DNA of 64,000 nucleotides from Cyanobacteriota bacterium (GTDB lineage: Bacteria > Cyanobacteriota > Cyanobacteriia > CACIAM-69d). Of the stretch, positions 2,117 to 57,614 are shown in pieces. Below the pieces are notes generated by a model, which did not search any database, had not been told where the DNA came from, and saw nothing but the letters and a program-made list of their open reading frames with translations. The first letter of the stretch is position 1, and every line of letters begins with the position of its first letter. A program made the translations under genes and the position numbers. The stretch spans positions 62,001 to 126,000 of the forward strand of contig JAKRSF010000007.1 of the NCBI GenBank assembly GCA_022402445.1. The letters are read 5' to 3'.

Positions 2117-2138
2117 ACAAGGGGTTTAAACCCCTTGT
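2117..2138. repeat. Perfect 22-bp palindrome (AAGGGG family), possible bidirectional terminator
   Basis: ACAAGGGGTTT at 2117-2127 is followed directly by its exact reverse complement. It sits between the secreted-protein gene and the hsdM operon. Close relatives lie at 57049-57070 and 59536-59557, and the half-sequence recurs beside the insertion sequence at 38.4-39.4 kb, so it looks like a dispersed intergenic element. It could also end transcription of the upstream gene. Confidence 0.6.
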
Positions 2139-37909: not shown

Positions 37910-38368
37910 CTATTCTATCGGACTCGGTTCAACCGGTAAAAGGGGCTCGCGGGGGGCGACGGTGGCGAGGGCGATCGCAACGGCAAAGGCATAGTCCCCG
38001 TCGTGGCTGATGCTGAGCTGCCAGGGGGCGGGGCGATCGCCGCAGAGGGCGCTCCAGCGGCGGTGGGCGGCGCGGTGGAGATGGACGGTGGGGGCTCCGT
38101 GGGGCGATCGCCGGATTTCGATATCGGTGTAGCCCATGCCGGTCCAGCCGGTGCCCAGGGCTTTGACGATCGCTTCCTTGGCGGCCCAGCGTCCGGCGAG
38201 CCGTTTGATCACTTCGGGCGGCGGGGCGCTGGATGGGGGGCGATCGCGCCAGCAGTCGGCCTGTTCCTGGGGGGTGTAGAGCCGCTGGAGGAAGCGATCA
38301 CCGAACCGCTCCAAAGCTTTGGAAACCCTGGGGATGTGGACGACATCGGTGCCGAGCAGGAGCGCCAT
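37910..38368 (-). CDS. acpS: Holo-[acyl-carrier-protein] synthase AcpS
   Basis: A 152-residue 4'-phosphopantetheinyl transferase that activates acyl carrier protein. It begins M-A-L-L-L-G-T-D-V-V (Mg-binding Asp8) and has the second signature G-R-W-A-A-K-E-A-I-V-K-A-L-G. A C-terminal S-H-D-G-D-Y-A-F-A-V completes the fold. The ATG at 38368 was chosen over the longer frame from 38422 because family members start at this point and the extension runs into the repeat/insertion region. It lies 155 bases upstream of pipX on the same strand. Confidence 0.93.
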   Translation of the reverse strand: MALLLGTDVVHIPRVSKALERFGDRFLQRLYTPQEQADCWRDRPPSSAPPPEVIKRLAGRWAAKEAIVKALGTGWTGMGYTDIEIRRSPHGAPTVHLHRAAHRRWSALCGDRPAPWQLSISHDGDYAFAVAIALATVAPREPLLPVEPSPIE

Positions 38369-38405: not shown

Positions 38406-38468
38406 CTAGGGCGTGTCGTCAAATCGTCCCAGATCCCGGTGAAACAAGGGGCTTAGGGGGTGTCGTCA
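38406..38468. repeat. Dispersed repeat copy at the left edge of the insertion sequence
   Basis: The stretch from CTAGGG (38406) to TGTCGTCA (38468) contains two GTGTCGTCA-like ends 45 bases apart. About 50 bases of it align, with roughly four in five bases the same, to 57012-57060. Its inner part, CAAGGGGCTTAGGGG, is shared with the right-end repeats. It may be a miniature derivative of the neighbouring transposon. Confidence 0.6.
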
Positions 38469-38918
38469 TTTAAGCCAAAAGACAATGGCGAACAGGTAGA
38501 CGGCACTCAAGAAGTGCGAGGCTCGCTTGTCGTATCGTGTCGCTAGACCGCGATACTCTTTCAGCTTCTGAAAGAAGTTCTCCACCAGATGGCGCGCCTT
38601 GTATAGCTCACGGTCGTCTTCTCGGAACTCCCTACGATGACGACGGGGCGGAATCACCGCCTCGATCTTCTGCTCTCGTAGCCGAAACAGCACACGCTTG
38701 TCCGCATCGTAGGCCCGATCTGCTATCAACGCACCTGCCTCTAAGTCCGTCAGCAGCACATCCGCTCCTTCTAAATCACAACGATTCCCAGCGGTCACAT
38801 GGAACTTCAGGGGATTGCCCAGGGCGTCCCCAAGGGTACTGAGTTTAGTGCTCTGCCCTCCCGCACTGCGCCCTATGGCCTCGTCATTCTTCTCAGAACT
38901 CCCCCTTTTTTGCCGCAC
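38466..38918 (-). CDS. IS5-type transposase, C-terminal part (OrfB)
   Basis: It encodes the second half of the DDE transposase: G-R-S-x-G-G-Q-S-T-K-L, the second catalytic Asp in I-A-D-R-A-Y-D-A-D, and the third residue in the signature Y-K-A-R-H-L-V-E-N-F-F-Q-K-L-K (Y...R...E......K). It shares 26 bases with OrfA. The shared segment contains A6G5 on the coding strand, a plausible slippery run. Joining the frames needs a +1 (or -2) shift. The full-length enzyme could come from slippage, or the gene could be broken by an indel. Confidence 0.8.
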   Translation of the reverse strand: MRQKRGSSEKNDEAIGRSAGGQSTKLSTLGDALGNPLKFHVTAGNRCDLEGADVLLTDLEAGALIADRAYDADKRVLFRLREQKIEAVIPPRRHRREFREDDRELYKARHLVENFFQKLKEYRGLATRYDKRASHFLSAVYLFAIVFWLK

Positions 38919-39240
38919 CGGCGCTGTGCTGGTGGGCTCGCACGAGAGTGGTATCGAGCATCACGTACTCTCGGTCTGCATCTTGGCTTAAAAGCCTGAA
39001 AATCTTCTCCCAGAGGCCCTTTTGGCTCCAGCGGCTAAAGCGGCGGTGGACGACTCGAAAGTCGCCGAACTTTTCCGGCAGGTCTCGCCAGGGACAACCG
39101 GTGCGATAGCGGTAGAGAATCGCCTCAATGAACAGGCGATGGTTGCGTCCTGTCGCACCGATCCGTCCTCGGTGGGCAGGCAGTAGGGGACGAATCCGTT
39201 CCCACTGTTCATCGTTGAGCACAGAGCGGTCCGGCTGCAT
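38893..39240 (-). CDS. IS5-type transposase, N-terminal part (OrfA)
   Basis: It encodes the DUF4096-like N-terminal region (D-E-Q-W-E-R-I-R-P-L-L-P, Y-R-Y-R-T-G-C-P-W-R-D-L-P) and the first catalytic Asp in M-L-D-T-T-L-V-R-A-H. The frame ends at TGA (38893) just after the A6G5 run. An ATG at 39240 starts the usual sequence; 39264 is an alternative. See OrfB for the continuation. Confidence 0.8.
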   Translation of the reverse strand: MQPDRSVLNDEQWERIRPLLPAHRGRIGATGRNHRLFIEAILYRYRTGCPWRDLPEKFGDFRVVHRRFSRWSQKGLWEKIFRLLSQDADREYVMLDTTLVRAHQHSAGAAKKGEF

Positions 39241-39303
39241 GGCACAGAGAAGATATGGAGTCAAAGAGCTAGGATCTATACTCTACAAATTGTCAGCACT
39301 GTT

Positions 39304-39457
39304 TTGACGACAGCCCCTAAGCCCCTTGCCCCTACCAGCCGATGGAAGGTGCCGCAAGGGTTTCAGCCTAATTGACGACGGCCCCTAAGCCCCTTGCCCC
39401 CAGCAGGCGATGTGCGGTCCCGCAAGGGGTTCAGCCCAATTGACGACAGTCCCTAAG
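39304..39457. repeat. Tandem 68-bp repeats bordering the insertion sequence
   Basis: Units begin TTGACGAC at 39304, 39372 and 39440, so two complete 68-base copies are followed by a partial third that ends at the cofH stop codon. Each starts with the same TGACGAC..CCCTAAG end as the insertion sequence. Each complete unit can fold by pairing CCCCTTGC with GCAAGGGG (fully in copy two, almost in copy one). They could act as terminators for cofH or be remnants of repeated insertion ends. Confidence 0.75.
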
Positions 39458-40607
39458 CCATCAGGTCGTAGAGGGTGGTCCGCTGGGCGTGGGGTCGGCC
39501 GATCGCCGCGATCGCCCCCTGGAGACTGGCGACGGTTTGGCAGGTGCCGCCGATCGCCCCGGCCATGCTGGTGATGTGTTCTTCCATGAGGGTGCCGCCG
39601 AGGTCGTTGCAGCCCCAGGTGAGGGCGGTGGCGGCCCCATCGAGGCTGAGTTTGACCCAACTGGGCTGATGGTTTTGGATCCACTGGCCCAGGTAAATGC
39701 GGGCGACGGCCATGAGTTTGAGGGCATCCTTCAAATCCGGCTGATCGCGCCCGACCCGGCGGCGCAGGGGGGCGGGGGCGAATTGGCCGACGAAGGGCAG
39801 CAAAATAAATTCGGTGATGCCGCGATCGCCGCGCGCCGCCGCCCGCTGTTGCAGTTGCCGGATTTGGTCCAGGTGGGCCACCTGCTGCGGCACCGTTTCA
39901 ATGTGGCCGGACAGGAGGGTGCTGGTGGTGGGCAGGCCGAGGCGGTGGGCGGTTTCGATGATGTTGAGCCAGGTGGCGCTGTCGATTTTTTCGGGGCACA
40001 GGATGGCGCGCACGCGATCGTCTAACACTTCGGCGGCGGTTCCGGGCATGGAGCCCACTCCGGCTTCCTGAAGGGCGGCGATCACTTCTGCAAAGGTGAG
40101 GTCATCCCGACGGGCGATAAATTCCACTTCCTGGGGCGAAAAGGCGTGGAGATGCACGTCTGGAAAGGCGTTTTTGATGGCTTTGACTAAACGCACGTAG
40201 TAGGGCAAGGATCGACCCGCGATCGCGGCCTCCGGATTCAGGCCCCCCTGCATACAAATTTCCGTGGCTCCTTGGGCAACGGCATCGGCGGTTTTTTGCA
40301 GAATTGTTGTCTCATCGAGCCAATAGGCCCCGTCCTGGTTCGCATCTCGCCGAAAGGCGCAAAAACTGCAATGTTGCTCGCAAATATTGGTGAAATTGAT
40401 ATTGCGATTGACGACATAGGTCACCACCTCCCCCGCCTGCCGCCGCCGCAGTTGATCCGCTACGGTTTGCAACTGGGCGATCGCGTCCGGATCCTGGGTT
40501 TCTAGCAGGGCGATCGCGTCATTTGGGGTTAACTCTTCATTCGCCAGGGCGCGATCAAAAATCCTTGAAAGCTGGTCTTGATTGGGTTTAATAACATCAG
40601 CAACCAT
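39453..40607 (-). CDS. cofH: FO synthase subunit CofH (radical SAM)
   Basis: A 384-residue radical SAM enzyme. The cluster cysteines are C76, C80 and C83 (C-E-Q-H-C-S-F-C), followed by [13 protein letters not shown] and later M-P-G-T-A-A-E-V-L, as in CofH/MqnC relatives. With CofG it makes the deazaflavin FO from tyrosine and a ribityl-uracil; in cyanobacteria FO can serve as the antenna of DNA photolyase. cofG is not in the window. The 3' end abuts 68-bp repeats. MqnC was considered but the sequence fits CofH better. Confidence 0.9.
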
Positions 40608-57011: not shown

Positions 57012-57070
57012 GTAGGGAGTGTTGTTAAATCGCTCCAGAACCCTTAATACAAGGGACTTAAGCCCCTTAT
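57012..57070. repeat. Dispersed repeat copy with AAGGGG palindrome
   Basis: Starts GTAGGGAGTGTTGTTAAATC and aligns with 38406-38455 beside the insertion sequence. It contains the imperfect palindrome ACAAGGGACTT/AAGCCCCTTAT (57049-57070). It lies between the transporter and the DUF3750 gene. It may work as a terminator for either. Confidence 0.6.
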
Positions 57071-57125
57071 CCCTATCGGCTCGGCCATGATGGAATAGGG
57101 TTTTGAGGCCATTCGATGACAGACC

Positions 57126-57614
57126 CTAGCATTGCCATGGCGTTGGGGATGGAAAAATGCGGTGGTGGGATTTCCCGAGGCCCCGGGGTCCAAGGTCGTG
57201 ATCGACGGCGGCGCGATCGAGGATCCACTGAGCATAGGTGTTGCTGTTGGGACCGGGCCAGTAGCGGTACCGATCGCGGTGGGGATAGGTGGTGGGGCTG
57301 GCGATGAGTTCCTGGGCGAGGCGGTTGGCGATCGCGCCGGTCCAGGATCGTTCGCACCAACTGCCCCCATTGCCGACGCCGCTGGTGGGGGCCATGAGAT
57401 TTTGGTGTAGATGGCCCCAGTGGCGACCGCCCACGCCGCGCCGCTGCCAGATTTCCCAGCGATCGCGCCGATCGCCCTGGACCACCACGAACCAATAATG
57501 CACCGCGATCGCCCCCACCCACGGGATTTTGGCGGCCCGCAGCTCCACAAGATCAAGGCCAATCAAGGGATCCACAGGAGACGGGGGGAGATGCGATCGC
57601 GGTGCTTCAGCCAT
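57126..57614 (-). CDS. DUF3750 family protein
   Basis: A 162-residue protein. It shows the DUF3750 blocks V-E-L-R-A-A-K-I-P-W-V-G-A-I-A-V-H-Y-W-F-V-V, W-E-I-W-Q, G-H-L-H-Q-N-L-M, G-N-G-G-S-W-C-E and P-N-S-N-T-Y-A-Q-W-I-L. The family has no established function; the conserved Cys/Asn set and an N-S-N-T-Y segment recall a catalytic site (speculative). The start at 57614 is provisional (57635 is possible). It lies just downstream of the porin gene (27-base gap), on the same strand. Confidence 0.82.
   Translation of the reverse strand: MAEAPRSHLPPSPVDPLIGLDLVELRAAKIPWVGAIAVHYWFVVVQGDRRDRWEIWQRRGVGGRHWGHLHQNLMAPTSGVGNGGSWCERSWTGAIANRLAQELIASPTTYPHRDRYRYWPGPNSNTYAQWILDRAAVDHDLGPRGLGKSHHRIFPSPTPWQC

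Follow-up and report, generated by a model that had tools for sequence, protein, structure and literature searches.

Insertion of IS elements into REP-like palindromes, either at the axis or inside a MITE, is already established. ISRm22, ISPpu9, ISPpu10, ISPa11 and ISNm1106 have all been found in REP sequences; ISRm22 inserts exactly at the axis of the palindrome, and ISNm1106, a member of the IS5 family, prefers REP-containing spaces (Tobes and Pareja 2006, PMC1525189). In Coxiella burnetii, IS1111 targets a palindrome inside QMITE2 that is itself a GTAG REP (review, PMC10969869), the GTAG/CGTC tag being the feature by which REPs are defined (PMC3733652). For cyanobacteria, small dispersed repeats have been described by Elhai and co-workers (cited in PMC3116915 and PMC3733652).

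Here we took a 64,000-nucleotide stretch of cyanobacterial DNA (the window; G000 C10:62001-126000), which is part of a 4.08-Mb genome in 13 contigs, and compared it with the rest of its own genome (G000) and with relatives from the same family (G001 to G005). Counts for the window's own genome come from sequence searches, and those for the relatives also from ∼1.6 Mb of stretches. The window has a GC content of 61% and contains 213 copies of GCGATCGC, and on these grounds we take it for cyanobacterial. An IS5-type element with GGGNNTGTCRTCA ends and a TA duplication lies in the axis of a palindrome which forms the core of a like-ended MITE (∼115 bp if uninterrupted), and sister genomes show this palindrome to be a recurrent landing site. 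We consider it likely that the arms now surrounding the element arose by nesting of MITEs, with the IS arriving last.

The IS, delimited by reading of the sequence and by profile searches, is 862 bp long (38456-39317, minus strand) and was the only copy returned by a search of its own genome. Comparison of its ends gave 13-bp terminal inverted repeats of the form GGGG[G/C]TGTCGTCA, identical at 12 of 13 positions, namely GGGGGTGTCGTCA on the left (38456-38468, plus strand) and GGGGCTGTCGTCA, read on the minus strand, on the right (39305-39317). They are bordered by a duplicated TA (38454-38455 and 39318-39319). The transposase is divided between two minus strand ORFs. ORF A encodes the N-terminal part (38893-39264, with an alternative start possible at the ATG at 39240; PF13340, E=3.5e-29; NF033580, 139.9 bits) and ORF B the DDE domain (38466-38918; PF01609, E=2.2e-13; NF033580, 135.4 bits). 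Both ORFs thus score above the 110 bit cut-off of NF033580 (NCBIfam transpos_IS5_3), as expected of a member of the IS5 family, and the 13-bp ends with their TA duplication match the ends of relatives that lie at CTA/TAG sites. These relatives, from other cyanobacteria and from other phyla, start with GGGCRTGTCRTCA or similar and occupy CTA/TAG or TTA/TAA targets within unrelated flanks. One of them, from the Chromatiaceae, has AAGGGACTTA as its left flank and was considered as a further insertion into the palindrome, but was rejected since its right flank is TAGCAGCC and no palindrome is formed. We take the window element to resemble the IS427 subgroup of the IS5 family, in the sense of resemblance only.

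A AAAAAAGGGGG run lies where ORF A and ORF B overlap (38901-38911, minus strand). Most two-ORF relatives have a run of A and/or G at the corresponding position, so that the run here is probably a site of frameshifting or slippage and not simply the mark of decay. Counted by hand, passage from ORF A into ORF B takes a shift of +1 (or -2) here versus -1 in most two-ORF relatives, and for this reason the window copy may be inactive, or dependent on slippage. The G072 relative has one fused ORF.

The preliminary description had reported a 24-base motif at the ends of the IS which recurs in 68-bp units on the right, once more on the left and again at 57.0 kb. All of these copies were found in place, and the recurrence stands, whereas the reading of all 24 bases as IS sequence does not. 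Each 24-base end is a composite of 11 bp of an older palindrome half (CAAGGGGCTTA) and the 13-bp inverted repeat of the IS. With CAAGGGGCTTA as its left and TAAGCCCCTTG as its right flank, removal of the IS and one TA yields the 20-bp palindrome CAAGGGGCTTAAGCCCCTTG, and it is at the central TA, the symmetry axis, that the IS is positioned. Since the flanks of the IS relatives are unrelated to CAAGGGGCTTA, we assign it to the target and not to the IS; the same comparison places CAAGGGGC outside the IS. The duplication, anticipated as being of a TTA/TAA type, is TA, and the TTA/TAA appearance comes from the palindromic target CTTAAG.

The whole composite measures 1045 bp (38409-39453) and occupies the interval between acpS and cofH. 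Direct reading shows the same TA on either side of it (38407-38408 and 39454-39455), the target duplication of the outer MITE. The holo-ACP synthase gene acpS (37910-38368, minus strand; profile matches) starts ∼40 bp from the composite, and cofH (39453-40607, minus strand; profile match) overlaps its end with its stop codon. This TAG (39453-39455, minus strand) is built from the TA of the target duplication and the first base of the MITE end, which places the insertion exactly at the end of the gene. The left arm extends from the terminal repeat GGGCGTGTCGTCA through the left palindrome half (38409-38455, plus strand, the half itself at 38445-38455), a layout also seen in the uninterrupted MITE described below and in L004. 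Sequence comparison identified two right arms where there is one left arm: the first (39318-39385, plus strand) begins with the right palindrome half and ends with TTGACGACGGCCCC, and the second (39386-39453, plus strand) ends with TTGACGACAGTCCC. Between these arms 57 of 68 sites are identical (84%) and 11 are not, and the right-hand units are therefore not a recent tandem duplication; of the repeat array described earlier the repeats are real, and nested MITEs is the better term for them. The MITE ends carry the same TGTCGTCA repeat as the IS.

The motif at 57.0 kb, correctly described as having no transposase, proved on pattern search and reading to belong to an uninterrupted MITE of the same family (57015-57126, plus strand). 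It is 112 bp long, with terminal repeats GGGAGTGTTGTTA and TGACAGACCC, and its palindrome (57051-57068) is intact with one mismatch. Like other MITEs it is shorter than ∼500 bp, noncoding, bounded by terminal inverted repeats and present in multiple copies, with more in the genome and in the relatives. Pattern search also revealed a solitary palindrome variant, AAGGGGTTTAAACCCCTT, with a TTTAAA centre and no recognisable MITE arms (2119-2136, plus strand). Allowing up to 3 mismatches, the pattern AGGGNNTGTCGTCAAATCG gave 6 matches in the window against 0.14 expected, a number reached in 0 of 100 shuffles, and the palindrome AAGGGGCTTAAGCCCCTT gave 2 uninterrupted matches against 0.02 expected.

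That the IS had inserted into an already existing repeat, one of the two possibilities raised in the preliminary description, is borne out by the abundance of uninterrupted copies. There are ∼49 such palindromes in the window's own genome at up to 3 mismatches, 28 of them exact 20-mers; some are contained in ∼115-bp MITEs with ends like TAGGGNNTGTCRTCAAATC, and many have no recognisable arms. Of 291 cyanobacterial genomes sampled from the class, representing 130 genera, 59 genomes from 26 genera contain the 20-mer, some of them with no relative of the window transposase at E<=1e-20; a reversed control pattern was found in none. Among the relatives, 18-mer copies number 109 in G002, 252 in G004 and 281 in G005, with up to 272 exact 20-mers (G005). 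A relative of the window transposase was not detected in G002, G004 or G005 (E<=1e-20), an observation that we count against our main explanation. As an extragenic palindrome within the 20-40 bp range and present in many copies, the repeat has the copy number of a REP; the GTAG/CGTC tag is absent, the flanks of the palindrome being RAC and GYCC, and no PF01797 match indicative of a RAYT (Y1 transposase) was obtained at E<=1e-5 in G000 or G002, both of which are palindrome-rich. The HIP1 sequence GCGATCGC is not contained in the palindrome, and the one Rfam hit, at E=0.38, fell far short of its cut-off and is not meaningful. A search of open literature for the core sequence gave no match, although it would have overlooked sequences broken up in print. 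In G013, a distant cyanobacterium, the palindrome forms part of short repeats, tandem or clustered, that have flanks of another kind, CTAGAC...GCTCCTGACTGACACAAGTCCCTGA (L181, L186, L191).

In the sister genomes, elements with ends of the GGGNNTGTCRTCA type are strongly concentrated in the palindrome and have thus used it repeatedly as a landing site. IS or MITE ends abutting a palindrome half make up 2 of 16 in G000, 7 of 29 in G002, 20 of 111 in G004 and 57 of 176 in G005 (18-32% in the latter three), counts that may include copies duplicated together. The corresponding figures are 0 of 94 and 0 of 238 (together 0/332) in the palindrome-free G001 and G003, where MITEs with these ends have, as far as read, a different middle. 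Expressed per YTAR site, the excess is ∼36-fold in G004 (6 of 17 ends) and ∼129-fold in G002 (3 of 5 ends), both from small numbers. Complete MITEs with a palindrome half on each side are present in G002 and G004. We regard a choice of site shared by the IS and the MITEs as well supported. A second MITE type of ∼189 bp, with TGTCRTCA ends and no central palindrome, was also seen inserted in palindromes (G002 C1:238031 and C19:18742; position 9637 of L329 in G004 C53).

The arrangement in the window could have been reached in four steps. A first MITE with a palindromic core would have landed beside cofH at a TA, and a second would have entered the core of the first, giving left arm A, half palindrome, the complete second element (left arm B, palindrome, right arm B), half palindrome and right arm A. 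One left arm would then have been lost by recombination or slippage between the palindrome halves or the left arms, and the IS would have entered the remaining intact core last, an order that we infer. This choice of a common site by the MITEs and the IS may reflect related transposases that take YTAR as target and would favour TTAA at the axis of a palindrome. The 16% difference between the right arms is as expected of two different MITE copies.

Empty sites and intermediates of this kind come from G002 and G004, for which ∼200 kb of sequence is orthologous, mostly at 92-97% identity (G002 C2 and C19 versus G004 C63, C16, C45 and C53; G002 contig C1 has essentially no overlap with G004 C24 and C35). 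Three MITE families were distinguished in these genomes, with terminal repeats that are mutually unrelated by eye: TGTCRTCA in family A, GAGGATGTYTGAAAAG with flanking TNA in family B, and TGACAGGCTTAATACATTGGGTCAA / GGCTTAATACATTGGGTCAA in family C. A family-A MITE at G004 C63:129299-129615 is absent from the orthologous G002 site, and a family-B MITE at G004 C63:11375-11509 is likewise absent in G002, with a clean junction; both empty sites, which lie elsewhere than the window locus, show the mobility of these families. Comparison with relatives, as proposed in the preliminary description, thus yielded clean empty sites between G002 and G004 but none for the window locus itself; cofH was found in four relatives, with no shared acpS neighbourhood in the sequence read around it. 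At G004 C16:97314 the palindrome of a family-B MITE holds a whole family-A MITE, whereas the orthologous site, G002 C19:53520, has only a half palindrome, one arm and a whole palindrome. Going by its sequence, this half-element is the expected product of recombination between palindrome halves, and such recombination would also give the arm layout of the window.

There is a lesser but appreciable chance that no nesting was involved: the IS would have entered a single MITE, and slippage between TGACGACRGCCCCTAAG repeats would have duplicated the right arm in tandem, before or after that event. The boundary TGACGACRGCCCCTAAGCCCCTTG is present at the right end of the IS and at both arm ends, which makes slippage possible, but with 11 differences between the arms the duplication would have to be old; moreover, a composite of one left and two right arms exists in G004 with no IS (L188), and nested MITEs are common in the relatives.

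The core itself was surveyed in 1.58 Mb of G002 and G004 (stretches L271-L350), accepting palindromes with up to 5 mismatches. Of the family-A MITEs 8 of 15 had it at their centre, as did 27 of 30 in family B and all 11 in family C. One variant, AAGATGCTCAAGCCCCTT, was counted 15 times in the sample from G004 but a single time in that from G002, and is found in cores of A, B and C. At G004 C63:57358 and G002 C2:85646 the flanks are near-identical, yet the palindrome is AAGGGGCTGAAGCCCCTT in G002 and AAGATGCTCAAGCCCCTT in G004, three bases apart. The occurrence of this variant across families, and in place of AAGGGGCTGAAGCCCCTT at an orthologous site, suggests that cores have been homogenised between elements, either by conversion or by insertion and collapse. 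It is a more doubtful proposition that the 20-bp palindrome is itself mobile or homing. It would then have made its way into the middle of three or more MITE families unrelated to one another, and its variants would spread and overwrite other copies via conversion, or via insertion of a MITE into the palindrome and subsequent loss of its two arms.

An older repeat, the palindrome lies mostly at gene 3′ ends, as determined with our own gene calls from codon statistics, and this location raises the question of whether survival, not target choice, accounts for the insertions: palindromes would mark tolerated gene 3′ ends, perhaps terminators, and insertions elsewhere would have been purged. We think this unlikely. 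It would agree with the avoidance of divergent intergenic regions (0 of 29 intergenic palindromes in the window's own genome, and 7 of 77 in G002 and G004 versus 30% of intergenic bases, p=1.7e-5), with the excess between convergent genes (24 of 77 in G002 and G004 versus 13% of intergenic bases, p=5.9e-5), and with the stable RNA hairpin that the palindrome can form (-15.4 to -20.1 kcal/mol), for which a position at gene 3′ ends fits a terminator. However, survival alone should not put insertions exactly at the central TA, the 36- to 129-fold excess per site is greater than a bias towards 3′ ends would give, and most copies, by eye, have no U-tract after the stem.

The least probable explanation is that the ends of the IS, including CAAGGGGC, were amplified and that the repeats are deletion derivatives of the window IS, for although MITE and IS have TGTCRTCA terminal repeats in common, the IS is single-copy, most palindromes are without IS ends, palindrome and MITEs are abundant in G002, G004 and G005, where this transposase is lacking, CAAGGGGC is absent from the IS relatives, and the similarity of MITE and IS extends, by eye, little beyond the terminal repeat and the TA. 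For the palindrome, which lies outside the IS, this idea is largely refuted; copies with no IS-end motif and copies in genomes that lack this IS, the very observations named in advance as contradicting it, both exist. What survives of amplification into miniature elements is more modest: the MITEs have the TGTCRTCA terminal repeat in common with the IS family and are presumably movable by a transposase of this kind.

This type of transposon and its miniature relatives carry their own landing site, and each inserted MITE brings a fresh palindromic target for further MITEs or for the IS. Nested composites, half-elements and the swapping of arms can arise naturally in this way with no damage to genes. 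The presence of the palindrome in three unrelated MITE families raises the testable question of how very small repeats spread, and this shared core is the part that may merit follow-up.

Compared with the NF033580 group of the IS5 family, the window element has a transposase of the same family, likewise in two ORFs and with a homopolymer run, has the short terminal repeats and the TA duplication, and shows no essential difference apart from the ORF shift of this copy. The small dispersed repeats of Elhai and co-workers, which are reportedly ∼20-27 bp long and present in many cyanobacterial intergenic regions, are like the palindrome in being very short, intergenic and cyanobacterial, a likeness drawn from their description. 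The REP-inserting IS elements share with the window IS a target that is a short repeated extragenic palindrome; here, however, the palindrome is not a tagged REP, the genome has no detectable RAYT, and the palindrome forms the core of a MITE that has the IS's own terminal repeats. IS1111, a member of the IS110 group, offers a close parallel, since with QMITE2 as at our locus an IS lies in a palindrome within a MITE. That IS is unrelated to the MITE ends, whereas here IS and MITE share their ends, MITEs enter each other's cores, and the core recurs in three MITE families. Less expected from the described systems is this last feature, a palindromic core common to three MITE families with unrelated ends, one variant of which is shared among them.
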